Assembly (NCBI GenBank): GCA_031255975.1
Contig: JAIRRM010000184.1
Location: forward strand, 1-18,011
DNA length: 18,011 nucleotides
Direction of reading: 5' to 3'
Origin: Propionibacteriaceae bacterium
GTDB taxonomy: Bacteria > Actinomycetota > Actinomycetes > Propionibacteriales > Propionibacteriaceae
The notes beneath the pieces are model-generated. The model did not search any database. It was not told the origin of the DNA and saw only the letters and a program-made list of their open reading frames with translations. Made by a program: the position numbers and the translations under genes. Positions 836 to 18,011 of this stretch are shown here, one piece after another. Within the stretch, counting starts at the first letter, position 1; each line of letters begins with the position of its first letter.

Positions 836-1978
836 TCAGCTAGAGACAGACGCCGTCAGCACCCGGCAGACGTTCAGGGCATCATCCAGCAATACGATGT
901 CGGCGCGATTGCCGATAGCCAGCGAGCCGACACCTTCAAGAGAGAGGTAGGCCGCAGGATGCGCGGTGGCGGCGCGTAACGCCAAGGCTAAAGGCACCCC
1001 GGCGGCGACCGCCGTACGTATCGCGCGGTCTAAAGTGAGCGTAGAACCGGCGATGGTGTCGCTTCCGGCGATCCGGGCCACCCCGGCGGTGACCGTGACC
1101 GGCAGTTCGCCCAGACTGTACGAGCCGTCGGCAACCCCCGCCGCGGCCATGGCGTCGGTGATGAGCACACAGCGTTCGGGCTTGGTGCGCATCACCTGGG
1201 AAAGCAGTTGCGGCGCGACATGTACCCCGTCGAATATCAACTCCACCCACACGGCTGGGTGCTCCCAAAGCGCCAGCACCGGGCCGGGAGCGCGATGCAA
1301 AAGTTCGGGCATCGCGTTGCCCAGATGAGTGGCTCCGGTGGCACCAGCCGCGATGGCGGCGCGGGCGGTGTCGTAATCACAGCCGGTGTGACCCAGCGCT
1401 ACGGTGACCCCGCGTTGCGCCAGGTACGTCACCGCCTGGATGCCCCCGGCACGTTCCGGCGCGAGGGTTACCAGTTTCACCGCGCCGTGGCTGCCGGCGG
1501 CGAGTAGTCGCTGGATGTCGTCGCTGGTGGGATCGATGAGGCGAGCCACCGGGTGCGCGCCATGGTATTCGGGAGCCAGCCACGGCCCTTCCAGATGTAT
1601 TCCGGCGAGTTCCCCGGCGCTTACCAGCGGGGTCAGCGCCGTGATCTGAGCCTCCAGTTCAGCGATGCTCTGGGTGACCAACGAGCCGATCATGGTGGTG
1701 GTGCCGTGGGTGCGATGGGTGGCGAGCACGGTACGGGTCGCAGCCACGCCTTCGCCGAAGGAGGCTCCGCCGCCGCCGTGACTATGTATGTCCACGAAGC
1801 CGGGGGAGAGCACGCCGTCCCATTCGATGTCGGGGGTACGGGTCGCGGCTCCGGTGCCGACGGCGGTGATACGTCCATCAGTGGTTTCTACCCAACCGGT
1901 GACGAGGTCGGGTTGGTCGGGCAAAAGCACGCGCTTGGCGTGGATCAGCGTGGTAGTCACCGCACCAGTCTCACACAT
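836..1978 (-). CDS. nagA: N-acetylglucosamine-6-phosphate deacetylase
   Basis: This cytoplasmic amidohydrolase removes acetate from GlcNAc-6-P to give GlcN-6-P. The 380-residue length is normal for the family. Visible motifs are the metal-binding HSH (65-67, within VDIHSHGGGG), the HLEGPW segment with the metal-ligand Glu (130), GHT (His197), THLGNAM (His218; THLYNAM in many homologues), GVH (His254) and the catalytic Asp of ITDAM (Asp275). Together they indicate an intact active site. The gene starts three bases after the nagB stop codon, so the two are surely co-transcribed and probably translationally coupled. The ATG at 1978 has no clear Shine-Dalgarno sequence; an in-frame GTG at 1960 is an alternative start. 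It supplies GlcN-6-P to NagB and is the point where GlcNAc from both halves of chitobiose converges. Confidence 0.95.
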   Translation of the reverse strand: MCETGAVTTTLIHAKRVLLPDQPDLVTGWVETTDGRITAVGTGAATRTPDIEWDGVLSPGFVDIHSHGGGGASFGEGVAATRTVLATHRTHGTTTMIGSLVTQSIAELEAQITALTPLVSAGELAGIHLEGPWLAPEYHGAHPVARLIDPTSDDIQRLLAAGSHGAVKLVTLAPERAGGIQAVTYLAQRGVTVALGHTGCDYDTARAAIAAGATGATHLGNAMPELLHRAPGPVLALWEHPAVWVELIFDGVHVAPQLLSQVMRTKPERCVLITDAMAAAGVADGSYSLGELPVTVTAGVARIAGSDTIAGSTLTLDRAIRTAVAAGVPLALALRAATAHPAAYLSLEGVGSLAIGNRADIVLLDDALNVCRVLTASVSS

Positions 1979-1981
1979 CGC

Positions 1982-2773
1982 TCAGACATCCAGCCGTTGC
2001 CAGTCGGGTAGATTGGCGTACACCTGCTTGTAGTAACCCTTGAGTTTTAGCGAACCGGCGGCGGCCTCATCGATGACGCAGGTGGCGTGCCGATGCAGTT
2101 GGAGCACGGAACCGGGCCACATTGAGGTGACCGATCCCTCAATGATGGCGGCGATGGCTTCGGCCTTGGTGTCGCCGGTGGCGACCAGCACGATGGCGCG
2201 GGCGTCCATGATGGTGCCGATGCCCTGGGTGATGCAGTGTCGCGGCACTGCGGCGGCTGACTCGAAGAAGCGGGCGTTGTCGGTGATGGTGCGAGGTGCC
2301 AGCGTCTTGATCCTGGTTCGGCTCGCCAGCGAACTCGTCGGCTCGTTGAACCCGATGTGGCCATTTGCGCCCACGCCGAGGATCTGCACGTCCACCCCAC
2401 CAGCGGCGGCGATCTCGGCCTCGTAGCGCTCTCCGGCGGTATCTAGCCGGGCGGGGTCGCCGTCGGGTACATGTACCCGCGCCGGATCTAGCCCCAGCGG
2501 CGTCGTGACGGTGCGGGCGATGGTGGCGTGATAACTTTCAGGATGTTCGTACGGCAGCCCCACGTACTCATCCAGCGCGAACGCCGAGGCGGCGCTGAGG
2601 TCGAGTTCACCGGCGGCCACTAATGCGGCCAACTCGCGGTAGGTGGCAAGCGGTGATGACCCGGTGGCCACCCCGAGCACCACCTGTGGGCCGACCTTGG
2701 CGGCCAACTGGGCCACCTTGGCGGCGCCGATCTCGCCGACCCGAGCTTCGTTGGGGCAGATGATGACTTCCAT
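1982..2773 (-). CDS. nagB: Glucosamine-6-phosphate deaminase
   Basis: This cytoplasmic enzyme converts GlcN-6-P to fructose-6-P and ammonia, the last committed step of amino-sugar catabolism. The NagB/6-phosphogluconolactonase fold is shown by the phosphate loop GVATGSSPLATY, the FALDEYVGL segment with the catalytic Asp, the EHPESYH segment, and GVGANGHIGFNEP, which holds the catalytic Asn/His/Glu cluster. I chose the ATG at 2773, giving 263 residues, the usual family size. It is preceded by AGGCGG nine bases upstream, and translation from it starts MEVIICP, like other NagB proteins. A GTG at 2791 would add six residues. The gene is first in the minus-strand nagB-nagA operon, transcribed away from the palindromic operator at 2849-2871, so the ROK repressor probably controls it. 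The allosteric GlcNAc-6-P site of the E. coli enzyme was not assessed. Confidence 0.95.
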   Translation of the reverse strand: MEVIICPNEARVGEIGAAKVAQLAAKVGPQVVLGVATGSSPLATYRELAALVAAGELDLSAASAFALDEYVGLPYEHPESYHATIARTVTTPLGLDPARVHVPDGDPARLDTAGERYEAEIAAAGGVDVQILGVGANGHIGFNEPTSSLASRTRIKTLAPRTITDNARFFESAAAVPRHCITQGIGTIMDARAIVLVATGDTKAEAIAAIIEGSVTSMWPGSVLQLHRHATCVIDEAAAGSLKLKGYYKQVYANLPDWQRLDV

Positions 2774-2873: not shown

Positions 2874-4040
2874 ATGGAACGGGCAAAGTCGCCTAGTACG
2901 GGATCACTTACCCGGCAACGTCGAGGTGGATTGACTACCGCGCGGCCGCAGGACGGTCGTCGCTCCAATCTGGCCGTCGTGATGCAGTCTTTGAGTGACG
3001 AGCCGGGCCTCACCAGAGCAGAACTTGCTCGTCGTACCGGCCTCACTAAAGTGACCATCTCCGACCTGGTAGCTGAGTTAATTGACGCCGGATTGGTGGC
3101 TGAACGTGGCACCGCTCCGAGCGCAGGGCCCGGCAAACCAGCCATCGGTTTGGAGATACGTACGGATGCGCGTGACATCATCGCTTTCGATATCGCGCAG
3201 CCCGCCACGGTGAGAATTGGCGTGTACGATCTCGCCGGTGGGCAGCGCTCCGTCGCCACAGCCTCCCTAGGAGCCGCTCGGGGCGGCGACGCCGTCGCAG
3301 CGCTGGGCGAATTGGCGGCTGCGGCTATCGCGAACGCCGACCGTCCAGTGCTGGGTGTGGGTATCGGCTCCCCCGGCATCGTGGACGCCGAAGGTAAGGT
3401 GCTCTCGGCAGAGATTCTGGGATGGACGGACGTGCCGTTACAGGCACTGCTCGCTGAACGCCTCGGAGTGCCGGTGGTGGTGCTGAACGACGCCAACGCC
3501 GCCGCCAGCGCCGAACGCTCCTTCGGAGGCGGGCTGGCCGATGCCATCCGCGTCACCATCACCGACGGTGTGGGTGCTGGCATCATGCTTGGCGGCGAAC
3601 TGCTCATCGGCAAATCCGCTGCGGCAGGCGAGATTGGTCACGTCGTGGTGGAGTACGGCGGCGACCACTGCCGCTGTGGCAAGGATGGCTGCCTGGAGAC
3701 GTGGATCTCGGTGCCGGCGCTCAACCGGAGGTTACGCGCCGGGGCGAACATCGGCGGTGGGCCGGGATCGCGCAGCGAAATACTGGCAGAAGCTGGGCGA
3801 CGCCTCGGTATGGCGCTGGCCCCCGTGGTGGCGGCGCTCGATGTGAATGAGGTGGTGATTGGCGGGCCGATTGATCTACTCAGGGGAGTTTTCGTCACCT
3901 CAGCCGCCGATCTAGTGAGCGAGCGCACCCACTCTCGCTTTCGTGCCGACACCACGGTACGACTGTCCGCGCTCGGCTCCGAGGCCGTGCTGCTCGGGGC
4001 GGCATCGCTGATAAGACTCAGCACCCTCGGAATCTCCTGA
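2874..4040 (+). CDS. ROK-family transcriptional repressor (NagC/XylR type)
   Basis: This is a sugar-responsive DNA-binding protein of 388 residues, with an N-terminal winged helix-turn-helix joined to a ROK sugar-binding domain. The HTH spans about residues 47-75 (TRAELARRTGLTKVTISDL). The ROK part shows GIGSPGIVD, NDANAA (206-211), and the zinc motif with His256 and CRCGKDGC (266-273). The N-terminal ATP-binding DxGxT motif of ROK kinases is replaced by FDIAQPATV, as expected of a regulator rather than a kinase. It is the first gene of the import/phosphorolysis operon and divergent from nagB, with a 23-bp palindrome ending two bases before its start, so autoregulation is likely. The inducer is probably GlcNAc-6-P or GlcNAc by analogy with NagC; this is inference. 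The start is the ATG at 2874, placed as for leaderless translation. Confidence 0.9.
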   Translation: MERAKSPSTGSLTRQRRGGLTTARPQDGRRSNLAVVMQSLSDEPGLTRAELARRTGLTKVTISDLVAELIDAGLVAERGTAPSAGPGKPAIGLEIRTDARDIIAFDIAQPATVRIGVYDLAGGQRSVATASLGAARGGDAVAALGELAAAAIANADRPVLGVGIGSPGIVDAEGKVLSAEILGWTDVPLQALLAERLGVPVVVLNDANAAASAERSFGGGLADAIRVTITDGVGAGIMLGGELLIGKSAAAGEIGHVVVEYGGDHCRCGKDGCLETWISVPALNRRLRAGANIGGGPGSRSEILAEAGRRLGMALAPVVAALDVNEVVIGGPIDLLRGVFVTSAADLVSERTHSRFRADTTVRLSALGSEAVLLGAASLIRLSTLGIS

Positions 4041-4120: not shown

Positions 4121-5452
4121 ATGAGAAGGAAGATCGCGGCGGCCCTGTTAGCAGCGGCCACTGTAATCACCATGGCCGGGTGTTCTGACGACACTCCGAA
4201 CCCGTCCGGTACGGACACTGCAAAGGGTCAGGACATCACTTTCTGGCTCATCGGCGGTGACACCCCGCAGTCGGCGCGTGACTACCTTATCGAGGAGTAC
4301 AACAAGCGCACCGGTGGCACGTTGACCATTGTGGAGCAAACCTGGGGTGACATCATCACCAAGCTCACCACCAATATGCCTGATGCCAACAACACGCCCG
4401 ACGTGACCGAGATCGGCAATACCCAGTCGCCGAGTTTCACCAACGTCGGCGCATTCCTCGACATCTCCGACATGTATCAGGAGTTGGGCGGCACCAAGTT
4501 GCTGCAGAGCTTCGTCGATGTCGGCATGGTGGACGGCAAGAACTACACCCTGCCGTACTATTTTGGATCGCGCTATATGTTCTACCGCAAGGATGTGTGG
4601 GAGGCAGCGGGCTACACCGAAATGCCGACCACCCTTGACGCCTTCAACGCGGCGGTGATTGACATCACTACCAAGAATCCGCTCGGCATAGCTGATTTCT
4701 CCGGCATGTTCCTGGGCGGCCAGGATTGGCGTGACGGCGTTTCCTGGGTATTTGCCAACGGTGGCGAACTGGCCAAGTACGAGAACGGCCAGTGGGCTAT
4801 GACCCTCTCCGATCCGAACACCATCAAGGGGCTACAGCAGTTGCAGGACATCCAGCTACGCGCCTCAATGGCTCCGACGACCGCTCGTGACCAAAGCCCA
4901 TGGCTCTACATAAACGATAGCGATTCAATGACTAACGATGACGGCACCACGTCGGCCACCGCGCTCTCCGCCGCCACCATCATGGCCCCGGGTTGGGCAC
5001 ACTGGTCGATTGGCGATTTGGAGGGCGATGCCCGTGTCTGGAATCCGGATAAGTTCGGCACTTACGTGCTGCCGGGTAACGACGGCAAGCCGGCTCCGGT
5101 GTTCGCCGGTGGCTCCAATGTCGGTATCTCCGCCGCGTCCAAGAACGTGGAAGGTGCCAAAGAGTTGATGCGTATCATCTTCTCCGCCGAGTATCAGCAG
5201 ATCCTAGGTCAGAATGGCCTTGGCCCTGCCAACTCCGATTACGTGAACTCGCTGGGTAACGACGAGTTCGCCAAGGCCCTCATTGAGTCAGCGTCTAACT
5301 CGAAGCTCACCCCAGCCGCTGTCGGCTGGGCGGGCGTAGAGGCTACTGGCAAACTGGAGGAGTTCTTTGCGAGAGTGGCCGAAGGTGGCGATGTGGTGGC
5401 GTTGGCCGCCGAATACGACGCCACTTTGACGCCGTTGCTGAATCAGGCGTAA
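4121..5452 (+). CDS. Sugar ABC importer, substrate-binding lipoprotein (family 1)
   Basis: This extracytoplasmic solute-binding lipoprotein of 443 residues probably captures chitobiose or chito-oligosaccharides and delivers them to the two permeases encoded next. The N-terminus is a lipoprotein signal: MRRK, a hydrophobic stretch, then the lipobox TMAGC with the lipidated Cys at residue 21. The mature part looks like the MalE/family-1 fold, with DITFWLIGG near the start and a typical NVGISAASKNVEGAKELMRI segment near the end. A Shine-Dalgarno-like AAAGGA precedes the ATG. The 80-base gap after the repressor gene shows no obvious promoter or operator copy, so it is probably co-transcribed with it. 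A strong intercistronic hairpin follows the stop codon. Substrate assignment comes from operon context, not from binding-site residues. Confidence 0.88.
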   Translation: MRRKIAAALLAAATVITMAGCSDDTPNPSGTDTAKGQDITFWLIGGDTPQSARDYLIEEYNKRTGGTLTIVEQTWGDIITKLTTNMPDANNTPDVTEIGNTQSPSFTNVGAFLDISDMYQELGGTKLLQSFVDVGMVDGKNYTLPYYFGSRYMFYRKDVWEAAGYTEMPTTLDAFNAAVIDITTKNPLGIADFSGMFLGGQDWRDGVSWVFANGGELAKYENGQWAMTLSDPNTIKGLQQLQDIQLRASMAPTTARDQSPWLYINDSDSMTNDDGTTSATALSAATIMAPGWAHWSIGDLEGDARVWNPDKFGTYVLPGNDGKPAPVFAGGSNVGISAASKNVEGAKELMRIIFSAEYQQILGQNGLGPANSDYVNSLGNDEFAKALIESASNSKLTPAAVGWAGVEATGKLEEFFARVAEGGDVVALAAEYDATLTPLLNQA

Positions 5453-5457
5453 GCCAA

Positions 5458-5501
5458 TGGGTGTGTGGACGGGGCTGGTGAGTGCTCCGTCCACACACCC
5501 A
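5458..5501 (+). promoter_or_regulatory. Intercistronic hairpin between binding-protein and permease genes
   Basis: A perfect 15-bp stem (5458-5472 with 5487-5501, core GTGTGTGGACGG) encloses a 14-base loop. It starts six bases after the binding-protein stop codon and ends 20 bases before the permease Shine-Dalgarno sequence. No U-tract follows, so full termination is unlikely. Similar structures in ABC-importer operons protect the binding-protein mRNA from 3' decay or partly terminate, giving excess binding protein over permease. Confidence 0.7.
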
Positions 5502-5520
5502 GATTCCGAAGTATCGTCCC

Positions 5521-5526
5521 AGGAGG
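5521..5526 (+). promoter_or_regulatory. Shine-Dalgarno AGGAGG deciding the permease start
   Basis: A consensus AGGAGG lies five bases before the ATG at 5532. It supports this start over the in-frame ATG at 5457, which sits at the foot of the intercistronic hairpin and would add 25 unconserved residues. Confidence 0.8.
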
Positions 5527-5531
5527 TGCGC

Positions 5532-6464
5532 ATGACAGCCGCAGCGCCGGTTGAGGTCGAGACCGCAGCACGCGAACTGAACCCGCGTCGTTTCAAGGTT
5601 GCGCCGTACCTGCTTATCGCTCCAGCCATCGTGATGCTAGTGGTGGCGCTGGGCTACCCATTGGGCTGGCAGTTGTACACCTCGCTACATCACTATGGTT
5701 TGGCGCAGCAGTTCGGCAGACCTGCGGAGTTTGTCGGTATCGAGAACTTCGCCACCTTGTTCGGGTCGTCCGAAACCTGGACGGTGGTGATTCGCTCCCT
5801 GATTTTCTGCCTGGTAAACGCCGGGCTCACCCTGATTATCGGCCTCGGTGCCGCGCTGCTGATGAAAGCGGTTCACACGGTGGTACGGCTCATCATCCAG
5901 GGGGCTATGCTGCTGGCGTGGGCCACCCCGGTCACCGCCGCCGTCACCATCTGGATCTGGCTGTTTGACTGGCACCATGGCGTCGTTAACTGGGTGCTGG
6001 CGCACTTTTGGCCGTCCATGGCGCACTACAACTGGCTGGGCAGTCAGTTTGGGTTCTATGCTGTCGCTACTTTGATTGTGGTGTGGATGAGCGTGCCGTT
6101 CGTGGCGCTCTCCATCTACGCCGGGCTCACCCAGGTGCCGGACGAGGTGATGGAGGCCGCGCAGATTGACGGTGCTACCGCCTGGCAACGGCTCACCCGA
6201 ATCACGTTGCCGCTCATCCGTCCGGTGCTGATGATCGTCGCCTTGCTGCAAGTGATTTGGGATCTGCGCGTGTTCACCCAGACTCGCATGTTGCAGGACT
6301 ACCAAGACCCGCTCAATGTGGATCTGCTCGGCACCTACATCTATCGCGTAGGCATCGGGCGGTCCGATTTCTCGATGGCTAGTGCGTTCTCCATTTTCGT
6401 GCTGCTGCTTACCGTCGCGTTGAGCTGGTTCTACGTACGTCAACTGATAAAAGAGGACAACTGA
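5532..6464 (+). CDS. Sugar ABC importer permease (MalF/UgpA type)
   Basis: This is one of two inner-membrane subunits forming the sugar translocation pore; 310 residues, six predicted membrane helices. The N-terminus is cytoplasmic (to about residue 22), followed by a first helix APYLLIAPAIVMLVVAL. The conserved EAA loop that docks the ATPase is at about 208-232 (EAAQIDGATAWQRLTRITLPL). Both the EAA motif and the Gly at the usual spacing are present, so it should couple to an ATPase, though no such ATPase is encoded in the operon. The stop codon is one base before the next permease gene, implying tight translational coupling. It belongs to the CUT1-like permease group, usual for di- and oligosaccharides. 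The start at ATG 5532 is set by the AGGAGG just upstream. Confidence 0.93.
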   Translation: MTAAAPVEVETAARELNPRRFKVAPYLLIAPAIVMLVVALGYPLGWQLYTSLHHYGLAQQFGRPAEFVGIENFATLFGSSETWTVVIRSLIFCLVNAGLTLIIGLGAALLMKAVHTVVRLIIQGAMLLAWATPVTAAVTIWIWLFDWHHGVVNWVLAHFWPSMAHYNWLGSQFGFYAVATLIVVWMSVPFVALSIYAGLTQVPDEVMEAAQIDGATAWQRLTRITLPLIRPVLMIVALLQVIWDLRVFTQTRMLQDYQDPLNVDLLGTYIYRVGIGRSDFSMASAFSIFVLLLTVALSWFYVRQLIKEDN

Positions 6465-6465
6465 C

Positions 6466-7299
6466 ATGCCCTCCCTTCGTAAAACGCTGGTTGCGTTTGC
6501 CGCTATTGTGATGGCCGCAGTGTGGGCCTTCCCGGTGTACTGGATGGTTTCGTCGTCGCTACTGTCGAACGTTACGCTCAGCCGCAGCACTCCCACCTGG
6601 TTCCCTGCTGGAGGCACGCTCAGCAACTACCGTGCCGTGCTGGCGGACGGTCGCTTCGGCGACGCGCTTTGGGTGTCGCTCCGGGTGACGTTGCTCACCG
6701 TGTTCGTGGTGTTGATCTTCGCCTTCTTGGCGGCTCTCGCTATCTCGCGTTTCAAGTTCCGTGGGCGTAAAAGCTTCGTGCTGGCGCTGCTGTTCATTCA
6801 GATGTTGCCTGCCGAGGGGTTGTTCATCGCGCAGTACAAAATGATGGCCACTACGCAGCTACTCAACTCGGTCATCGGTGTCTCGGTGCTATACATCGCC
6901 GCCATCATTCCGTTCACGGTGTGGATGCTGCGTGGTTTTGTCGCCGGTATTCCCGCCGAATTGGAAGAAGCGGCGCAGATTGATGGCTGCTCGCCGACCG
7001 GCGCGTTCTTCCGGGTGACGTTCCCGTTACTGGCTCCGGGACTGGTGGCGTCTGGCGTGTACGCATTCCTCCAGGCTTGGAACGAGTTCACCATCGCGCT
7101 TGTCATCATGCAAGATCCGGTGTCGCGCACTTTGCCGCTGTGGTTGCGGGCGTTCATCGAAGGGTCTCGGGCGCGCGAAATTGACTGGGGTGCGGTGATG
7201 GCATCATCTACGCTGGTCGCGGTGCCGGTAATCGTGTTCTTCATGGTTGTACAGGGACGCATGACCTCCGGCTTGGTAGCGGGAGCAGTCAAGGGGTGA
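6466..7299 (+). CDS. Sugar ABC importer permease (MalG/UgpE type)
   Basis: This is the second pore-forming subunit, 277 residues with six predicted helices. It starts with the short MPSLRKTL lead and the WAFPVYWMVSSSL helix typical of MalG-type permeases. The EAA loop is at about 167-192 (LEEAAQIDGCSPTGAFFRVTFP). The LQAWNEF motif near the C-terminal third is a hallmark of this subgroup. It begins one base after the preceding permease stop, with a GAGG element upstream, and its own stop is six bases before the kinase ATG. The pair probably forms a heterodimer fed by the lipoprotein encoded at 4121-5452 and energised by a shared ATPase encoded elsewhere. Confidence 0.93.
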   Translation: MPSLRKTLVAFAAIVMAAVWAFPVYWMVSSSLLSNVTLSRSTPTWFPAGGTLSNYRAVLADGRFGDALWVSLRVTLLTVFVVLIFAFLAALAISRFKFRGRKSFVLALLFIQMLPAEGLFIAQYKMMATTQLLNSVIGVSVLYIAAIIPFTVWMLRGFVAGIPAELEEAAQIDGCSPTGAFFRVTFPLLAPGLVASGVYAFLQAWNEFTIALVIMQDPVSRTLPLWLRAFIEGSRAREIDWGAVMASSTLVAVPVIVFFMVVQGRMTSGLVAGAVKG

Positions 7300-7305
7300 T
7301 TCTTG

Positions 7306-8226
7306 ATGAGTGATGCGCGCTCGATTCTAAATCTGGGTATCGACGTGGGAGGCACCAAGACGTACGGCGTGGTGCTTGACGGAGCCGACAAAGTGGTGGC
7401 GCGAGGCAGTTCACCCACGCAGAAGAGTGCGGCTGGAGTGCAGGCATCGGTGACCGGGGTGGCGCGAGCGCTGGCAGTCGAATTGGGTATCGACATCACA
7501 GGCTTTGCCAGCGTCGGCATCGGCATCCCCGGCATGGTGGACACCTGCACCGGGGAGGTGGTCTCTGCCGTGAATCTGGGGTTCGACCGGATGCCGTTGG
7601 CTGCTGCCATGGCCCCGGTGTTCCAGGTTCCGGTGTGTATCGACAATGACATGAAGGTGGCGTTGCGCGGTGCCGGATTGTTGCTCGGCACCGATTCGCT
7701 GGTGTACCTCAATATCGGTACGGGGGTGGCTTCTGCCGCCATGGAACGTGGCCGGGTGGTGCGCGGAACCGAGAACATCGCCGGTGAAATCGGCCATATC
7801 ATCTATGAGCCGGGCGGGCCACTGTGCCTTTGCGGACAACAGGGCTGTCTGGAGGCGGTGCTCGGCGGACGCTACCTGGTGCCCCGGTTGGCGGAGGCCG
7901 GAGTGGAGTGGGCCGGTTTGGGTGCTATGCCGAAACATCCAGAGTATGCGCGCTGCGTAGGAGCGTTGGCGTGGGCCATCTCGGTGCTGTACCTGATGTA
8001 TGACCCGTCGGTGATAGCCCTAGGTGGCGGTGTGGTTGGTGCCGCGTCCTGGCTGCCAGAAGCGTTGAGCGCGGAGTTGACGACGCGTGCCGCCCGCGCG
8101 ATGTTCCCAGATTTCAAGCTCATTGAATCGCGGCTGCGTTTCCCCAGCACCACCGACCGTGCCGAGGTTGGAGCCATCGGAGCGGCGCTGGTGGGTCGGG
8201 ACAGCGCGGACAGTACCAAAGGGTAG
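7306..8226 (+). CDS. ROK-family sugar kinase, probable N-acetylglucosamine kinase
   Basis: This cytoplasmic kinase of 306 residues is likely to phosphorylate the free GlcNAc released by the phosphorylase to GlcNAc-6-P using ATP. The ATP-phosphate loop is intact (DVGGTK, 13-18). The catalytic base region reads IDND (112-115), followed by LNIGTGV, the GEIGH segment (His164) and the zinc motif CLCGQQGC (174-181), then ALGGGV near the C-terminus. It has no N-terminal HTH, unlike the ROK repressor in the same operon. The ATG at 7306 is chosen because AAGGGG lies about nine bases upstream; a TTG at 7303 would add one residue. Sequence alone does not separate GlcNAc kinase from glucokinase or ManNAc kinase; the assignment rests on the neighbouring phosphorylase and nag genes. 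Confidence 0.88.
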   Translation: MSDARSILNLGIDVGGTKTYGVVLDGADKVVARGSSPTQKSAAGVQASVTGVARALAVELGIDITGFASVGIGIPGMVDTCTGEVVSAVNLGFDRMPLAAAMAPVFQVPVCIDNDMKVALRGAGLLLGTDSLVYLNIGTGVASAAMERGRVVRGTENIAGEIGHIIYEPGGPLCLCGQQGCLEAVLGGRYLVPRLAEAGVEWAGLGAMPKHPEYARCVGALAWAISVLYLMYDPSVIALGGGVVGAASWLPEALSAELTTRAARAMFPDFKLIESRLRFPSTTDRAEVGAIGAALVGRDSADSTKG

Positions 8227-8239
8227 GCGAGGTGGCATC

Positions 8240-10486
8240 ATGCGGCCCAGAGTAAAAGCGGTGGTGTTGGCGGCTGGGCACGATTCTGAGACTCGTGCGC
8301 TGCTGTTGCGACCCTTTGCGAACTCCACCGTCATCGAACAGGCATTGGCTACGGTGACTCAGGTGGTGCCCAAGCGCGATGTCATCATCGTGGTGGATGA
8401 GCACGACTCGGCGGTACGCGAGCATCTGGGTGATTCTTGGCGTTACGTGATGCAGACGGTGCAAGCCGGCACCGGTGATGCGGTGCGTTGTGCCCGCTTC
8501 GAGTTGGAAGGTTTCAACGGCGATGTGCTGGTCGCCTACGGCGATACCCCGCTCATCCGTTCGTCGAGTCTGCGGGGGCTGTTGTGGCGACACCAGCTAA
8601 AGGAGGCGCAGCTTTCAGCGCTGACGGCGATGTTGGAGCATCCGGCGTCTTACGGCCGGGTGGTTCGAGGTGTCGCGGGTGAAATCGCCGGCATCGTGGA
8701 ACCGGAGGATCAGACTCCGGAGACTGAGCGGCTCACCGAGGTGAACGTCGGGGCGTACGTTATTGACAACTCGTTGCTCATCCCCACCCTGGATGAGATG
8801 GCGGCGGCGGGGGAGCATCGGCTCACTGAATTGGTGGAGCGGCTCATCGCTGCCGGGCACACCATTTCGTCGTACGCCATCTACGACCCGGATGAGGTGC
8901 AGGGCATCAATTCGCTGGAAGAGTTGGTTACCGCTGGCGATATCGTGTTGAAGCGGCTGTTCGCGCCCAGTCACGTCATTGAGACTGGTGAGATCGAGTT
9001 CGGTACTGGCGGTTGGCGAGCGCGTATCGGCGAAGGGTTCACATTGCACAATGTTCGGCGGTTGACGCAGGCGTTGGCCAATGATGTGACTCGGCGCGGC
9101 TTGGAGTCGCAGGGGGTGGTGATCGGCGGTGACCGGCGTTTCCTCTCCGCCGAGTCGGTGGTGGTGGCCGCCGAAGTGTTCGCCGGTAATAACATCCCGG
9201 TGAAGTTGTTGCTGGGCGACGTGCCCACGCCTTTGGTGACGTTCGCCGCTCCCCACCTGGGGTGCGGATACGGGCTGGTGTTCACCGCCAGCCACAATCC
9301 GCCGCAGTGGAACGGTCTCAAGGTGTTTCGCGCCGACGGCTCGTTACCGCTTGCCGCCGAAACCGACCGATTCTGCGCCGAAGCCAACGCGCTTGGCCCA
9401 GCCGATGTGGTGTCGCTCGACTTAGAGTTGGCGAAAGCGTCCGGCATTGTCCAGGACACTGACCTGACCAACGCCTATGTGGACGCGGTGGAGCGATTGG
9501 TAGACGTGGCCGCGATGCGCGACTCCGGGGGGCTCAGAGTGTTGGTAGATCCGATGTATGGCACCTCACAACTCACGCTCGGCATGATTCTCTCGGACGC
9601 CCGTTGTCGTAGCGAGTTCATCCACTCGGCTGTCAACCCGCTGTTTGGTGGGCAGTCCCCGGCTCCTGATCCAGAGGCATTGAGTCAGCTCATCACGATG
9701 ATGAAGACCGGTGGTTACGGATTGGGGTTGGCCACCGATGGCGACTCTGATCGTATCGGCGTTATCGATGGGCAAGGGCGCTACGTGTCTACCAATGACC
9801 TGCTGCTGCTTATCTACTGGTATCTGCACGAGGTGCGCGGCATGAAGGGCGGTGTGGTGCGTAATCTGGCCACCACTCATCTGCTCGACCGGTTGGCGGA
9901 GCATTTTGGCGAGCGCCATTTGGAGGTGCCGGTGGGCTTCAAGCACATTACCGCTGGGATGGCCGAGATCGACGCGTTGCTGGGGGGCGAAAGCTCTGGC
10001 GGGCTCACCGTCCGGGGACATATCTTGGGCAAGGACGGCATCTTCGCTTGCGCCCTGGTGGTGGAGATGCTGGCCGTAACCGGACGGACACTCACCGAAC
10101 TTTTGCGTGATGTGTACGCCATCACCGGACGGCGCTACCAGCGGGAGCACGGTGTCCCTGCCACCCCGGAGATGCGGGTGGAGTTGCCGCGCCGGATGGC
10201 CGTTGCCGCGCCCAGTGAGGTGGCGGGATACCCGGTGGAGCGTATCGACACCAAAGACGGCATCAAAATCCACTTGGTATCAGAATCCGGCTCCGCTCAG
10301 GCGGCGGATAAGCCTGGACGAGCGGGGCAAGGTGCTTGGGTATTGCTCAGATTCTCTGGCACCGAACCGGTGCTACGGATGTTCGCGGAAGCCGAAAGCC
10401 AGTCGAAGGTGCGGCAACTCATCAACTGGGTGGGTGACTTCGCCGCCGGGGTATGCCCCGGCGATCAGCCGCAAACCCATGTCTGA
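8240..10486 (+). CDS. Fusion of a GlmU-like nucleotidyltransferase domain and a phosphohexomutase
   Basis: This 748-residue protein has two domains. Residues 1 to about 240 resemble the GlmU pyrophosphorylase domain: VKAVVLAAG, QAGTGDAV (75-82), AYGDTPLI (99-106), SYGRVVR, GIVEPED, TEVNVG and EVQGINS. Its signature loop is degenerate: LAAG is followed by HDSETRALLLRPF instead of xGTRMxSxLPK, so the catalytic Lys is missing. Residues 250-735 form an alpha-D-phosphohexomutase with all loops intact: FGTGGWR, the phosphoserine loop TASHNP (Ser351), the metal loop DGDSDR (500-505), the sugar loop GGESSGG (582-588) and the phosphate loop RFSGTEP (704-710). The mutase probably turns the phosphorylase product GlcNAc-1-P into GlcNAc-6-P. 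There is no GlmU acetyltransferase domain. The ATG at 8240 follows the kinase stop by 13 bases and has a purine-rich AGGCGAGG upstream; an earlier in-frame codon would overlap the kinase gene. Confidence 0.85.
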   Translation: MRPRVKAVVLAAGHDSETRALLLRPFANSTVIEQALATVTQVVPKRDVIIVVDEHDSAVREHLGDSWRYVMQTVQAGTGDAVRCARFELEGFNGDVLVAYGDTPLIRSSSLRGLLWRHQLKEAQLSALTAMLEHPASYGRVVRGVAGEIAGIVEPEDQTPETERLTEVNVGAYVIDNSLLIPTLDEMAAAGEHRLTELVERLIAAGHTISSYAIYDPDEVQGINSLEELVTAGDIVLKRLFAPSHVIETGEIEFGTGGWRARIGEGFTLHNVRRLTQALANDVTRRGLESQGVVIGGDRRFLSAESVVVAAEVFAGNNIPVKLLLGDVPTPLVTFAAPHLGCGYGLVFTASHNPPQWNGLKVFRADGSLPLAAETDRFCAEANALGPADVVSLDLELAKASGIVQDTDLTNAYVDAVERLVDVAAMRDSGGLRVLVDPMYGTSQLTLGMILSDARCRSEFIHSAVNPLFGGQSPAPDPEALSQLITMMKTGGYGLGLATDGDSDRIGVIDGQGRYVSTNDLLLLIYWYLHEVRGMKGGVVRNLATTHLLDRLAEHFGERHLEVPVGFKHITAGMAEIDALLGGESSGGLTVRGHILGKDGIFACALVVEMLAVTGRTLTELLRDVYAITGRRYQREHGVPATPEMRVELPRRMAVAAPSEVAGYPVERIDTKDGIKIHLVSESGSAQAADKPGRAGQGAWVLLRFSGTEPVLRMFAEAESQSKVRQLINWVGDFAAGVCPGDQPQTHV

Positions 10487-10521
10487 CCATCGATAACAGC
10501 AATTAAGGAGCACCAGGCGGT

Positions 10522-13005
10522 ATGCAGTACGGCCATTTTGACGATGCGGCGCAAGAGTATGTGATCGACCGGGTGGATACTCCGTCCAGTTGGATCAACT
10601 ATCTCGGTGTGGAGCGTTGGTGTACCGTCATCAATCAAAGTGCCGGGGGTTACAGTTTTTTCCGTTCGCCGCAGTCCGGTCGGGTTACCAGATTTCGGCC
10701 CAATGGGGTGCCCGTTGATCGCCCCGGCCATTATCTGTATCTGCGTGATGATTCCGATGGCGATTACTGGTCGGCGTCTTGGCAGCCGGTGGGAAAGCCG
10801 CTGCGTCCGTTTGATGCCGGAAACGCGAACCCTGGTGAAGGGGCGGCTAGTTATCGTACTCGCCATGGGCTGTCGTACAGTGTGTATGAATCGGAGTATC
10901 GAGGCATAACTGCTAGTCAGCGTATATTTGTGCCGCTGGGCGATGATGTGGAACTGTGGGATGTGAGCGTCAGCAACAACTCTGCAGCAACCAGGGAACT
11001 CTCATTGTTCGGGTACGTGGAGTTCAGCTTCCATTCGGTGCAGATCGACAACGAGAACTTTCAGATGTCGCTTTACGCGGCGGGTTCGTCGTACGCCGCT
11101 GCGGTGATCGAGTACGACTTCTTCTACGAGCCGTGGACGTACCACTTTTTCACCGCGACACGCGAACCGGCCGGGTTCGATTCTCTGCGCGATAGCTTCA
11201 TCGGATCGTACCGAGATGAGGGTAATCCGTTGGCTGTGGAGCGTGGGGAATGCTCTAATTCGCAGGGCGCCACCGGGAATCATTGCGGCGCATTGCAGCA
11301 TCGCGTCACGCTGGCCCCCGGCGAGACGGTGCGATTCACGTATTTGTTGGGTTATGGTCGCCGCGAGGTCGGGCAGCGGCTCCGCGACAAATACGCCGAT
11401 CCGGCTGCGGTAGACAGCGCTATCGCAAACTTGGCCAACTATTGGCAGGCCAAGCGGGCGGTGCTACAGGTACGTACCCCGGACGCCGATCTGAACACTC
11501 TCATCAACACCTGGACGCTCTATCAGGCCGAAACCTGCGCGGTGTGGAGCCGCTTCGCATCGTTTGTGGAGGTAGGTGGTCGCGTCGGGCTGGGTTACCG
11601 CGACACTTCGCAAGACGTGATGAGCGTGCCGCACACCAACCCCGACAAAGTGCGGCAGCGTCTTGTCGAACTGCTGCACGGGCAGATGAGTTGGGGCTAT
11701 GGATTGCATCTGTTCGACCCGGCGTTGTTCGCCGGGCCGCGTGATGACATCCCCGGCGGGGTGAAGCTCCCCACGGTGGTGCCGAGCCGGGCCAGCGATC
11801 TGGTGCATGGCCTTGATGACGCCTGCTCCGACGATCACCTCTGGCTGGTGCCCAGCGTGGTGCAGTACGTGGTGGAAACCGGGGCGTTGTGTTTCTTAGA
11901 CGAGGTGATCCCGTTCGCCGATTCCGCGTTGAATCAAAGCGAACGTAGCGCGGTCATCGGAGTTGAAGCCGCCAACGGCTATGACCCCACTCCCACCACG
12001 GTGTACCAACATCTGCTGCGCGCTATCGAGTTCACCGCGGCGCAGGTGGGGGAGAACGGCATCGCCAAAGGGCTGCGAGCCGACTGGAATGATTGTCTGA
12101 ACCTGGGAGGCGGGCAGAGCGCGCTGGTGGCGTTCCTGCATGTCTGGGCGACACGTTCTTTGCTGGGGTTGGTGGCTCAGTTGCCCGAGAGTGACCCGCG
12201 CCGCGCTGACCTGCCGCGACTGGAAGCCATCTCCATCGAGGTGGGAACAGCCATTGAGCGCGAACTTTGGGACGGAGCCTGGTACCTGCGCGGCTTCACC
12301 AGCGGCGGGGTGCCCATCGGCTCCAACGCGTCACCGGAGGGAAAGGTGTTCTTGGAGCACATGCCATGGGCGGTGATTTCTGGCGTGGCTGTTCCCGAGC
12401 GGGCTACGCAGGCCATGAACGCCGTACACGAGCATCTCGCCAGTGAGTATGGCGCGCATCTGGTGTGGCCTGCCTACACCAAGGTGGACGACGCCATCGG
12501 CTATGTCACCAGGGTGTATCCCGGAGTGAAGGAGAACGGCGCCATATTCTCGCATCCGAACGCGTGGCCGGTGATCGCCGAGGCGCTGCTCGGGCGTGGT
12601 GAGCGCGCATACGGTTACTACCGCGCGCTGGCACCCAGCCGCTATAACGACCGTATCGAGGTGCGGCGTACCGAACCGTACGTATACGCTCAGTTCGAGT
12701 ACGGTCGTGACCATGAGTTCTTCGGACGGGCGGAGAACCCCTGGCTTACCGGCACCGCCGGGTGGATGTACACCGCCGCCACCCAGTATCTGCTGGGCAT
12801 CCGGCCTACTCTCACCGGGTTGGTGGTTGACCCCTGTATCCCGCCGGAGTGGGAGGGCTTCGAGGTCACCAGAGTTTGGCGCGGGGCCACCTACCGGATC
12901 AAGGTCGAGAATCCGCGGCACGTCAGTTGCGCCGCTTCTCGTCCTGCCGCCGTATTGCCGGTGATCTCCGCCGGTGAGACGCATAGCGTAACGGTTGTCC
13001 TCTAA
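10522..13005 (+). CDS. chbP: GH94 N,N'-diacetylchitobiose phosphorylase
   Basis: This cytoplasmic inverting phosphorylase of 827 residues should cleave (GlcNAc)2 with inorganic phosphate into alpha-GlcNAc-1-P and GlcNAc. The N-terminus (YGHFDDAAQEYVI, then WINYLG, then AGGYSF) is typical of GH94 disaccharide phosphorylases. The middle is closer to what I recall of Vibrio chitobiose phosphorylase than to cellobiose phosphorylase: FRPN..DRPGHY.YLRDD, CSNS...NHCG, and WTLYQAETC.VWSRFASF.EVGGR. The catalytic Asp lies in ADWNDCLNLGGG (520-531). The C-terminal part has ENGAIFSHPN (671-680) and the phosphate-site TGTAGW (743-748). About 20 extra residues at about 467-490 make it longer than the roughly 800-residue Vibrio enzyme. 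A TAAGGAG lies upstream of the ATG. It is the last gene of the operon and explains the neighbouring mutase and kinase. Confidence 0.92.
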   Translation: MQYGHFDDAAQEYVIDRVDTPSSWINYLGVERWCTVINQSAGGYSFFRSPQSGRVTRFRPNGVPVDRPGHYLYLRDDSDGDYWSASWQPVGKPLRPFDAGNANPGEGAASYRTRHGLSYSVYESEYRGITASQRIFVPLGDDVELWDVSVSNNSAATRELSLFGYVEFSFHSVQIDNENFQMSLYAAGSSYAAAVIEYDFFYEPWTYHFFTATREPAGFDSLRDSFIGSYRDEGNPLAVERGECSNSQGATGNHCGALQHRVTLAPGETVRFTYLLGYGRREVGQRLRDKYADPAAVDSAIANLANYWQAKRAVLQVRTPDADLNTLINTWTLYQAETCAVWSRFASFVEVGGRVGLGYRDTSQDVMSVPHTNPDKVRQRLVELLHGQMSWGYGLHLFDPALFAGPRDDIPGGVKLPTVVPSRASDLVHGLDDACSDDHLWLVPSVVQYVVETGALCFLDEVIPFADSALNQSERSAVIGVEAANGYDPTPTTVYQHLLRAIEFTAAQVGENGIAKGLRADWNDCLNLGGGQSALVAFLHVWATRSLLGLVAQLPESDPRRADLPRLEAISIEVGTAIERELWDGAWYLRGFTSGGVPIGSNASPEGKVFLEHMPWAVISGVAVPERATQAMNAVHEHLASEYGAHLVWPAYTKVDDAIGYVTRVYPGVKENGAIFSHPNAWPVIAEALLGRGERAYGYYRALAPSRYNDRIEVRRTEPYVYAQFEYGRDHEFFGRAENPWLTGTAGWMYTAATQYLLGIRPTLTGLVVDPCIPPEWEGFEVTRVWRGATYRIKVENPRHVSCAASRPAAVLPVISAGETHSVTVVL

Positions 13006-13109: not shown

Positions 13110-14843
13110 ATGCTTCGTAAATTGGTTTTCCGTTTTATCAGGCCCTACGGCGGCGCGTTGCTTGGCGTGTTGCTGTTGCAGGCCATGGCCTCTATGGCCT
13201 CGCTCACGCTGCCCACACTCAACGCCGCCATCATCGACGACGGTGTGGCCAAAGGCGATACCGCGTTCATCTGGACTCGTGGCGCGCTGATGCTGGCTGT
13301 CAGTGTCGCGCAGGTAGTGGGTCAGGTCGGTGCCGCTTTCTGCGGTGCCAAGCTGGCGATGGGTTTTGGACGCGATGTACGCGCCGGGCTTTTCGATCAT
13401 GTGCTCCGGTTTTCCGCGCGTGAGGTGAACAAGTTTGGCGCGCCGAGTCTCATCACCCGTAACACCAATGACGTACAGCAGGTGCAACAACTGTTGCTGA
13501 TGAGTTGCGTATTCATCGCGTCTGCTCCGCTCACCGCCGGCGGGGGCATTGTGATGGCGTTGCGCGAAGACATCGGTCTTTCCTGGCTCATCCTGGCGGC
13601 TGTCGGCGCGCTAGGCGTCGTCATCGGCATCGTGGTGGGGTTTATGACGCCGTTGTTTCGCAAGAACCAGGAGCGTATCGACAACATCAACCGGGTGTTA
13701 CGCGAGCAGTTGACCGGCATTCGGGTGATTCGGGCGTTCATCCGCGAGCCATCGGAGCGAAAACGCTTCCGGGCGGCCAACAGCGACCTGATGACCCTTG
13801 GCTTCAAGATCGGCACGCTGTTCTCGCTGATCTTCCCCGCCGTGAACCTGATTCTCAACCTGTCTACCGTGGGGGTGATGTGGTTCGGCGGGCATCGTAT
13901 TGACACTGGCGATTTGCAGATTGGGCAGATGCAGGCGTTCATCCAATATCTGATGCAGATTCTGATGAGCGTGATGATGGCCACCATGATGTTGATGATG
14001 CTGCCGCGAGCCCAGGTGTGCGCCCGGCGCATCATGGAGGTGTTCAACACTCCTTCGTCCGTGGCCGAGCCGGAACACCCGATCACCGAGGTGGCCACCA
14101 AGGGGCACATCGAGTTTAAGAATGTGACCTACCACTACCCCGGTGCCGAAAGCCCGGTGCTCAAAGACGTGAGTTTTGCCGTGGAGCCCGGCACCGTCAC
14201 CGCCATTGTCGGAGCCACCGGTTCCGGGAAGACCACCTTGGTGAACCTGATCCCACGCTTGGCCGACGCCACCTCCGGCTCTGTACTGGTAGACGGGGTG
14301 GACGTACGCCAGCTTGACCAAGACGTGCTGTGGGCGCATGTCGGGCTGGTGCCACAGAAGCCGTACCTGTTTTCCGGCACGGTGGCCAGCAACCTGGAGT
14401 ACGGCAAACCGGATGCCAGCGCGGACGAGATGTGGACGGCGCTGCGTACCGCCGCCGCGGAAAGTTTCGTGCGGGAACGCGGCGGATTGGAAAGCGGCAT
14501 CGCGCAGGGAGGTACCGACGTATCCGGCGGGCAGCGGCAACGACTATCCATAGCCAGAGCGCTGATGAAGCAGCCAGACGTTTACGTATTCGACGACGCC
14601 TTCTCGGCGCTCGATGTGGCCACTGATGCCCAGGTACGCTCCGCGCTTGCTGCGGAGACCAAGGCGGCGGCGGTGTTGATCGTGGCGCAGCGCATCACGT
14701 CCATCAGAGACGCCGATCAGATTTTGGTGCTTGATGAGGGTCGCATCGTAGGGCGTGGCACTCACATCGAACTGTTGGCCGACTGCCCGACGTACGCCGA
14801 GATCGTCGCCTCGCAGCTAAGTGCGGAAGAGGCAACGGCATGA
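13110..14843 (+). CDS. Heterodimeric ABC exporter subunit with degenerate catalytic site
   Basis: This 577-residue type IV (type I exporter) half-transporter has an N-terminal six-helix membrane domain (about 1-310) and a C-terminal ATPase domain. Walker A is GATGSGKT (368-375), the signature VSGGQ (471-475) is canonical, but Walker B reads VFDDAFSALD, with Asp496 where the catalytic Glu should be, and the switch His is Gln527 (VAQRITS). This pattern is that of the degenerate partner in heterodimeric exporters such as BmrC or TM287. The stop codon overlaps the next start (ATGA), so the two subunits are made together. No clear Shine-Dalgarno sequence precedes the ATG at 13110. The substrate is unknown: multidrug, lipid or peptide export are all possible. 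It has its own promoter and need not serve the sugar pathway. Confidence 0.92.
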   Translation: MLRKLVFRFIRPYGGALLGVLLLQAMASMASLTLPTLNAAIIDDGVAKGDTAFIWTRGALMLAVSVAQVVGQVGAAFCGAKLAMGFGRDVRAGLFDHVLRFSAREVNKFGAPSLITRNTNDVQQVQQLLLMSCVFIASAPLTAGGGIVMALREDIGLSWLILAAVGALGVVIGIVVGFMTPLFRKNQERIDNINRVLREQLTGIRVIRAFIREPSERKRFRAANSDLMTLGFKIGTLFSLIFPAVNLILNLSTVGVMWFGGHRIDTGDLQIGQMQAFIQYLMQILMSVMMATMMLMMLPRAQVCARRIMEVFNTPSSVAEPEHPITEVATKGHIEFKNVTYHYPGAESPVLKDVSFAVEPGTVTAIVGATGSGKTTLVNLIPRLADATSGSVLVDGVDVRQLDQDVLWAHVGLVPQKPYLFSGTVASNLEYGKPDASADEMWTALRTAAAESFVRERGGLESGIAQGGTDVSGGQRQRLSIARALMKQPDVYVFDDAFSALDVATDAQVRSALAAETKAAAVLIVAQRITSIRDADQILVLDEGRIVGRGTHIELLADCPTYAEIVASQLSAEEATA

Positions 14844-16913: not shown

Positions 16914-17125
16914 GATTCCGGCTCGAAGGCCGGAATGACGAAATCTGGCATCGGGTAAAACCGATATTTCCAGTTCTGGTGACGTGTAGCCCGAGTCCGC
17001 CCATCATTCCGGCCTCTGAGCCCGCCCGTCATTCCGGCCTTAGAGCCGGAATCCGTATGTGGTTTCCAGTTTTGGTGGTGTGTGGTCTGACCCCGTCCGT
17101 CATTCCGGCCTTTGAGCCGGAATCC
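16914..17125. repeat. Cluster of REP-like palindromic repeats
   Basis: Three complete copies and one truncated copy of a 26-28-base palindromic unit occur here: 16914-16940 (inverted orientation), 17002-17023 (right arm lost), 17027-17054 and 17098-17125. Each complete copy folds with 8-bp arms ATTCCGGC/GCCGGAAT around a 6-base loop, flanked by CGTC and ATCC. A longer unit is also duplicated: TTTCCAGTT(C/T)TGGTG followed by a CCG-rich spacer and the palindrome, starting at 16967 and again at 17063. The first copy is about 25 bases after the exporter stop and may stabilise or end that transcript. Confidence 0.8.
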
Positions 17126-17129
17126 ATCT

Positions 17130-18011
17130 TTTGATGCGGTTGGTAATCGGGTTGGGGTGACGAATACCGCGGGGGATGGTTCTCTGCTTGAATCGGTTTC
17201 TTACACCTACGATGCGGATAATCGGTTACTTGAGGAAACTTCCACTGTCAGTGGCACGACTACTTATGCGCATGATGCTGGTGGTTTGCTGGTTGGTTCC
17301 ATTAGCCCTACGGGCACTTTGCAGTATGAATACAATGCGGATCGGCGTTTGAGGGCTGTGTTTGCGGGTGGCCGACTCATGATGGCTGCTTCTTATGACG
17401 GGCATGGGGAGCGGGTGTTTCAGCTTTCGGCTGTTCCGATGTCGCTCACGGTTAGTGCTGGTGGGAGTGTTTTTGATTGGTTTAGTGAGGAGTTCCCTTC
17501 GACTGCGGGTGGGGTGTTTTGGTATGGCTTCATTCAGGCGCTCACGCAACAAGTGGCTGGTTCTAATCCGGCTTTGTTGTTGGAGATGCAGCCTGGGATT
17601 CGTAAAGTGTTGACGACGGTTGAGCATCAACTGCCGTCTGATTTGGCGTTAGATGAACGTGATTTGGGCAGTCTTGATGCTACTGGTATCGATCCGGCGG
17701 ATCTTGGTGAGTGGGTTTCTGGTGTGTATTCCACTTTGATTCCGGAGGGGATGGAGACTGTTGGTGAGGGTTGGGGTTATGAGTTAACGCATTATGTGAA
17801 TGACATCAACACTGCCCATACTCGGGTGTTGAGTACTTATAGCGCTGCGGGTGTTGATGTTGCGAATAATACTTATGGGTTAGATCGGTTGTCTTCCACC
17901 GGTGGCACGGTTTCGTGGTTGTTGCATGATGGGCGTGGCTCGGTTGGGCAGCAGATCACCGGTGGTGGGCTCTCGTTTGCTGCGTCATATGATCCGTATG
18001 GTGGAGCCGCG
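17130..18011 (+). CDS. RHS/YD-repeat protein, 5'-truncated remnant, runs off right edge
   Basis: The frame is open for 294 codons from 17130 to the window end. It encodes YD-repeat elements (FDAVGNRVG, YTYDADNRLLEE, YEYNADRRLRA), a non-repetitive stretch of about 150 residues, then YVNDINTAHTRVL, TYGLDRLSS, LLHDGRGSVGQQ and YDPYGG. The last motifs mark the RHS-associated core that in intact proteins precedes a variable toxin-like C-terminus. The homology starts abruptly within five bases of the last REP-like copy, an in-frame TGA lies at 17088, and there is no convincing start codon or ribosome site. So the 5' end of the gene seems lost and expression is doubtful. Codons are visibly richer in T (GGT, GTT, TTG) than in the upstream genes, suggesting separate ancestry. 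Intact RHS proteins are large secreted or surface polymorphic toxins. Confidence 0.75.

Follow-up and report, generated by a model that had tools for sequence, protein, structure and literature searches.

We analysed an 18,011-nucleotide stretch of DNA from a Propionibacteriaceae bacterium (contig JAIRRM010000184.1, assembly GCA_031255975.1; hereafter the window) and focused on a gene at positions 8240–10486 that fuses a GlmU-like nucleotidyltransferase domain to an α-phosphohexomutase within a chitobiose operon. From its motifs and gene context, the encoded protein may well be a catabolic N-acetylglucosamine (GlcNAc)-phosphate mutase with a built-in, non-catalytic pseudo-GlmU sensor domain. 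As ligand of this N-terminal domain (N-domain) we propose, with middling confidence, uridine diphosphate GlcNAc (UDP-GlcNAc) or GlcNAc 1-phosphate (GlcNAc-1-P).

The 748-residue protein is encoded by a single open reading frame, with an ATG at 8240 and a frame that opens upstream at 8087. Its main parts are as follows.

8240..10486, plus strand: putative pseudo-GlmU/phosphohexomutase fusion gene, 748 amino acids, one of 65 aligned homologous fusions.
8255..8959, plus strand: GlmU-like nucleotidyltransferase domain (TIGR01173, 139 bits over model positions 2–240; PF00483).
8993..10435, plus strand: α-phosphohexomutase, domains I–IV (four PGM_PMM Pfam domains).

GlmU models cover residues 7–240 (N-domain, approximately 1–240) and a complete α-phosphohexomutase occupies residues 250–735. 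In Pfam, NTP_transferase (35.5 bits; cut-off 21.2) and each of PGM_PMM I–IV exceeded their gathering scores; for a C-terminal β-helix acetyltransferase domain, no hexapeptide family appeared among the Pfam matches of the protein (E ≤ 0.01). Phmmer matches of residues 1–252 in the PDB (E ≤ 0.01; lowest 8.9e-32) comprised 17 distinct sequences, each of them GlmU or named as the same enzyme. The best NCBIfam models were archaeal GlmM (249.7 bits) and GlmU (155.4 bits), and every model fell below its curated cut-off, including the GlmU models PRK14354 (155.4 versus 450) and TIGR01173 (137.2 versus 366.85 bits) and the GlmM equivalog (146.5 versus 447.55 bits). Best-hit annotation could call these fusions GlmU or GlmM; the curated cut-offs back neither. 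The fusion protein is a new architecture that probably puts a known fold to a new use; no literature on this fusion or its pathway was found among the matches listed from open-licence PubMed Central papers. A sequencing error or a chimera in a metagenome-assembled genome (MAG) was ruled out, since 65 distinct sequences, drawn from numerous assemblies, share the fused frame and the loop loss described below, among them that of the culture-collection strain Xylanimicrobium pachnodae JCM 13526 (L052).

These sequences came from several sources. A scan of genome contigs (best 80 of 120 relatives) and 196 genomes drawn from the bacterium's own order, six of which, its own included, carried the full-length fusion, together gave 38 distinct fusions after copies were dropped. 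Their hosts are Propionibacteriaceae together with Propionicimonas, Cellulomonas, Promicromonosporaceae, Bifidobacteriaceae MAGs and Chloroflexi; the closest homologue among the matches listed is from a Propionibacteriaceae MAG (L032, 83%). Dropped before counting were L001 (the window itself), L003, L004, L005 and L007 (BLAST figures equal to those of L040, L039, L041 and L045), L155, L162 and L174 (copies of L067, L058 and L060) and L066, whose mutase, beside a GH94 gene, is cut by a contig end. From a Chloroflexi class (Anaerolineae, to judge from L060 and L067), 298 genomes around a Caldilineae genome were drawn; the fusion was present in 42, three of them incomplete (G689, G819 and G808), and 30 loci were taken, of which 27 were new, bringing the total to 65. 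By contrast, only the window's own genome matched at E ≤ 1e-130 among 394 genomes of its own class, so the fusion is uncommon among Actinobacteria at large. One further candidate, L074, was rejected as a fusion because it consists of two adjacent genes: at 7995–10595 in a SAR202 genome, a sugar nucleotidyltransferase gene, its loop intact by eye, lies next to a standalone mutase, possibly a picture of the state before fusion.

The N-domain has lost the segment with which GlmU holds the triphosphate of uridine triphosphate (UTP).

8267..8302, plus strand: degenerate triphosphate-binding loop, residues 10–21, LAAGHDSETRAL; GxGTR and the catalytic Lys are absent.

In one alignment, G16, T17, R18 and K25 of Escherichia coli GlmU become D15, S16, E17 and L21 in the window protein; a second alignment sets a gap at R18, and the pairing of residues within the shortened loop is accordingly uncertain. 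The loss itself was consistent across the family. The motif LAxGxG[TS]R occurred in 0/65 fusions and in 15 of 17 ordinary GlmUs (16 loci from the window's own genome and other fusion genomes, plus E. coli), and a looser form of the motif gave the same outcome. R18 and K25 are invariant in all 17 GlmUs; among the fusions, six had R at the R18 column and three had K at the K25 column, and the two coincided only in L183, which itself lacks GxGTR. Columns invariant in GlmU but lost in the fusions were concentrated here (4/4 within positions 15–26 versus 5/22 elsewhere; Fisher p = 0.008). The replacements were scattered, with no conserved new loop among the 65, and no other segment supplies an intact loop motif within the N-terminal stretch of about 300 residues searched in each of the 65. 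In our judgement, the N-domain is very probably not a working nucleotidyltransferase.

Most of the remaining GlmU pocket is still in place.

8453..8473, plus strand: retained uracil-side contacts Q72, G77 and T78 (E. coli Q76, G81 and T82; contacts from PMC8386105 and PMC9105790).
8654..8746, plus strand: retained sugar-side contacts G139, E154 and N169 (contacts from PMC8386105).
8537..8545, plus strand: retained Y100-G101-D102 (E. coli Y103-G104-D105), by alignment.
8909..8911, plus strand: retained N224 (E. coli N227).

E. coli N227 is a metal ligand. In the window's numbering, the residues kept relative to E. coli GlmU are A12, Q72, G77, T78, Y100, D102, G139, E154, N169, T196 and N224, and the landmarks LAAG, QAGTGDAV, AYGDTPLI and TEVNVG are all present in the translation. 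Across the family (E. coli numbering), Q76, G81 and D105 were kept in 65/65 fusions, N227 and T199 in 64, T82 and N169 in 59, G140 in 58 and E154 in 53. Contacts of Mycobacterium tuberculosis GlmU with UDP-GlcNAc and pyrophosphate include G17, T18, R19, K26, A14, Q83, G88, T89, G151, E166 and N181 (PMC8386105); by our own mapping to E. coli numbering, the first four are lost in the fusions and the other seven are kept. The original prediction, made from the window's letters alone, that GlmU landmarks persist while the GxGTRM...PK loop is gone is therefore borne out.

The mutase half, in contrast to the degenerate transferase half, is intact at each of its four loops, as had also been predicted.

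9284..9307, plus strand: phosphoserine loop TASHNPPQ (residues 349–356).
9737..9754, plus strand: metal loop DGDSDR (residues 500–505).
9983..10003, plus strand: sugar loop GGESSGG (residues 582–588).
10349..10369, plus strand: phosphate loop RFSGTEP (residues 704–710).

All four loops were present in each of the 33 fusions aligned for that check. Purifying selection also acts on the N-domain: in nine close pairs, the ratio of nonsynonymous to synonymous substitution rates (dN/dS; dS > 1 in two of the nine) was 0.13–0.46 for the N-domain and 0.04–0.23 for the mutase.

The genes around the fusion point to GlcNAc as the substrate. It lies between a ROK sugar kinase upstream and a GH94 enzyme downstream, in the following company.

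836..1978, minus strand: NagA-like GlcNAc 6-phosphate (GlcNAc-6-P) deacetylase (208 bits, just under the cut-off of 225.65).
1982..2773, minus strand: NagB, glucosamine 6-phosphate deaminase (TIGR00502, 257 bits; cut-off 236.9).
2874..4040, plus strand: ROK-family regulator with a winged helix, NagC/Mlc-like, by profile matches.
4121..7299, plus strand: sugar ATP-binding cassette (ABC) importer, binding protein and two permeases, by profile matches.
7303..8226, plus strand: ROK sugar kinase, presumably a GlcNAc kinase from its context, with no NCBIfam kinase model above cut-off.
10522..13005, plus strand: GH94 chitobiose phosphorylase, best solved relative 1V7V.

Of two chitobiose phosphorylases, 1V7V gave the GH94 neighbour a score of 939 bits and the other 499, and lactose and cellobiose phosphorylases gave at most 459, in agreement with the predicted chitobiose operon. 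A search for homologous fusions beside GH94 genes had been suggested as a check. Among the Actinobacterial loci from the contig scan, a chitobiose phosphorylase lay downstream in 26/29, 8–1149 bases away (24 within 260), and in the remaining three the sequence stops no more than 50 bases from the fusion match. With the window and G188 added, the phosphorylase is within 1.2 kb in 27 of the 28 Actinobacterial loci that could be judged. The link is not general: 6/7 Chloroflexi fusion genomes lack a close phosphorylase, and only two of the 298 genomes in the class draw have one (E ≤ 1e-200), both times beside the fusion.

Chloroflexi fusions have other GlcNAc genes nearby. In 26 loci we found a close chitobiose phosphorylase in three, a homologue of the NAGPA phosphodiester glycosidase in six (L058, L187, L188, L189, L191 and L200), a GH20 hexosaminidase in three and NagA in one; the L189 NAGPA match spans no more than 80 residues, where the contig stops, and a weak GH94 match in L065 (28.5%) was left uncounted. 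Any GlcNAc gene was present in 11/26 of these loci versus 0/19 standalone-mutase control loci, a contrast biased in its own favour because the NAGPA and GH20 probes derive from the fusion loci themselves, the L189 hit is partial and the controls are Chloroflexi of which many are Dehalococcoidia or SAR202. A genome-wide count of NAGPA homologues is a fairer test, albeit at a threshold of our choosing (E ≤ 1e-70): they occurred in 7/42 fusion genomes versus 4/256 others (p = 1.5e-4; 7e-4 without the query's own genome), and six of those seven have the homologue no more than 2 kb from the fusion. The placement of NAGPA beside the fusion suggests a salvage route for GlcNAc-1-phosphodiesters. Taken together, the locus counts indicate that in two phyla GlcNAc enzymes are encoded near the fused mutase, whether or not the phosphorylase is present.

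In a tree of the mutase (132 rows), the 65 fusions formed one clade with a Shimodaira–Hasegawa-like approximate likelihood ratio test (SH-aLRT) support of 99, and the 31 Actinobacterial rows (SH-aLRT 100) nested within the Chloroflexi rows, with L168 (genome G727) as the nearest Chloroflexi row. In a tree of the transferase domain, the fusion N-domains separated from GlmU (100). Both trees were quick and without bootstrap, and the mutase tree was flagged for long branches in its distant standalone rows. G727 is one of the two genomes in the Chloroflexi class draw that have a chitobiose phosphorylase (62%), and because this gene stands beside the fusion and L168 is the nearest Chloroflexi row, we infer a history that suggests the two moved together. 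Tentatively, a nucleotide-sugar-gated mutase could have arisen once, probably in Anaerolineae-type Chloroflexi, and been carried with chitobiose phosphorylase into Actinobacteria.

In the pathway read from the gene content, the phosphorylase would cleave imported chitobiose to GlcNAc and GlcNAc-1-P. The ROK kinase would convert GlcNAc to GlcNAc-6-P, the fused mutase would convert GlcNAc-1-P to the same product, and NagA and NagB would then feed GlcNAc-6-P into glycolysis. GlcNAc-1-P would thereby sit at a fork, with GlmU leading to UDP-GlcNAc and the mutase to GlcNAc-6-P and catabolism. The bacterium's own genome encodes a separate GlmU (C164; 332 bits, cut by a contig end and so below cut-off) and a separate GlmM (C42; 577 bits, above the cut-off of 447.55), and GlmU was above cut-off in 13 of the 16 fusion genomes tested. 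The possibility that the fusion is the cell's only GlmU/GlmM was rejected for this reason, and the fusion is not the cell-wall enzyme. The N-domain would no longer hold the triphosphate of UTP or pyrophosphate and so should not make UDP-GlcNAc; with its uracil, sugar and metal contacts kept, its most likely ligand would be UDP-GlcNAc, and the next best GlcNAc-1-P. Binding of the ligand would tune the mutase. Our guess at the direction is that plentiful UDP-GlcNAc would let the mutase drain GlcNAc-1-P to catabolism, and that scarce UDP-GlcNAc would leave GlcNAc-1-P for the separate GlmU.

Several observations weigh against a sensor–mutase of this kind. Outside the loop, the GlmU-invariant columns H28, G32, Y197, D200 and A205 are mostly changed too in the fusions. 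Six Bifidobacteriaceae fusions (L054, L056, L057, L059, L061 and L063), which form one clade (SH-aLRT 100), lack the segment bearing G140 and E154 and have N169 changed to D, T82 to P and Y103 to S, and the domain is nevertheless kept; their relative L046 retains the segment. N-domain dN/dS was 0.33 and 0.46 in two Bifidobacteriaceae pairs. Because these six have lost the sugar pocket, sensing is not the role of the domain in every fusion: these six may have given up sensing, or the domain may do something else, of a structural kind. The predicted sensor–mutase accordingly stands in part: the family is conserved, the loop is degenerate in 65/65, most contacts are kept and the linkage to GlcNAc genes holds, with the pocket-less six as the exception and a natural negative control. 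They favour the view that the N-domain is a structural remnant whose catalysis disappeared once it was fused and whose sole use today is in folding, dimerization or docking of the mutase, without sensing any ligand. The N-domain also diverges faster than the mutase (mean identity 0.49 versus 0.66; lower in 509/528 pairs among 33 fusions), and a helix after D102 (window residues 110–123) that is conserved in the fusions and not in GlmU (G113 65/65, L120 62/65, A123 64/65) could be an interface. If the domain were only a scaffold, one would hardly expect it to retain Q76, G81, D105 and N227 almost without exception, or E154 and N169 in most fusions, although the first four cut both ways: they stay in the pocket-less six as well and may be structural. 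On this evidence we consider a mere remnant rather unlikely.

The substrate can be questioned too, since the mutase might act on glucose 1-phosphate or mannose 1-phosphate, with the link to chitobiose genes incidental or serving central metabolism. The sugar loop GESSGG lacks the Asn of eukaryotic GlcNAc mutases and is unlike both FEAN of PGM3, whose Asn contacts the N-acetyl group, and GEESF of PGM1 (PMC5570346). A GlcNAc specificity read off this loop was rejected: the loop is common to 24/24 standalone sister mutases, some beside a galactokinase-like or nucleotidyltransferase gene, and so is no proof. Moreover, 15/26 Chloroflexi loci have no GlcNAc gene by the probes used, and in G188 (L185), of the window's family and listed as 100% complete, the fusion follows a phosphofructokinase gene by about 1 kb and the genome has no GH94 match. 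Against this stand the phosphorylase near nearly all judgeable Actinobacterial fusions, its position beside the fusion in both Chloroflexi-draw genomes that have it, and the linkage to NAGPA, GH20 and NagA in Chloroflexi, which make another hexose phosphate an improbable substrate. Among eight standalone sister-mutase loci, L008 adjoins a nucleotidyltransferase gene with an intact-looking loop, L012 has a galactokinase-like GHMP kinase (Pfam) and in L026 a kinase of that kind is suggested by eye alone; these loci may represent another route for galactose.

Weakest is the idea that the N-domain remains catalytic but with altered chemistry, for instance as a slow uridylyltransferase or as an enzyme that takes an acceptor other than pyrophosphate (for example, phosphate) on UDP-GlcNAc. 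We regard this as quite improbable from the missing motif and the scattered, unconserved loop replacements, even though D105, N227, N169, G140 and E154 largely remain, a few fusions carry K or R at the lost columns (both in L183), new arginines near the pocket could replace the lost charges (R107 in 56/65 fusions; R at E. coli Y197, window 194, in 46/65), and reasoning on activity from sequence can mislead, as Listeria GlmR, a proposed regulator in other studies, was found to catalyse UDP-GlcNAc synthesis (PMC10128056).

The sensor–mutase reading can be set beside known systems. The N-domain is homologous to GlmU and shares most of its uracil, sugar and metal contact residues (all PDB matches being GlmU); it differs in having no intact UTP triphosphate loop and no left-handed β-helix acetyltransferase domain, with a phosphohexomutase in its place. 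GlmM and other α-phosphohexomutases (1TUO/1WQA) share the four Pfam domains and all four loops, whereas the fusion falls below the GlmM equivalog cut-off and has the GESSGG sugar loop and an extra N-terminal domain. Actinobacteria also have bifunctional mannose-1-phosphate guanylyltransferase/phosphomannomutase fusions, which are mannose-specific, carry a β-helix between the domains and often have a degenerate mutase; these likewise join a nucleotidyltransferase to a phosphohexomutase, but here the transferase is the degenerate half. No literature on them was found among open-licence PubMed Central papers. In the Vibrio chitobiose phosphorylase pathway, GlcNAc-1-P from the phosphorylase is converted to GlcNAc-6-P by a mutase. 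The same conversion is described in an acidobacterium (PMC6252331), and the excerpt of that paper does not mention a pseudo-GlmU domain. Eukaryotic AGM1/PGM3 differs in its FEAN sugar loop, which is absent here with GESSGG in its place (PMC5570346). A precedent in regulation is GMPPA, a catalytically inactive paralogue of GDP-mannose (guanosine diphosphate mannose) pyrophosphorylase that binds GDP-mannose and restrains GMPPB (PMC11228364, PMC9856158, PMC9168903). Both are nucleotidyltransferase paralogues with catalytic residues lost and, as far as residues can tell, the product pocket retained (lost in 6/65 fusions); GMPPA acts on a pyrophosphorylase as a separate subunit, whereas the pseudo-GlmU domain belongs to the same chain as a mutase, and any regulation would be by analogy. 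If true, bacteria too would have turned a pyrophosphorylase that no longer works into a product sensor, here with a mutase as its partner enzyme in place of a pyrophosphorylase, and the fusion would explain directly, at the molecular level, how a bacterium feeding on chitin splits GlcNAc-1-P between energy and cell wall.

Other genes flank the operon in the window. Two adjacent ABC exporter genes lie downstream (13110–16888), and an RHS-repeat reading frame at the right edge (17112–18011) is cut by the window end. At the left edge, a GPR1/FUN34/YaaH-family gene (3–599) is likewise cut. This family includes acetate transporters, and a functional link to the operon is conceivable, with NagA releasing acetate.

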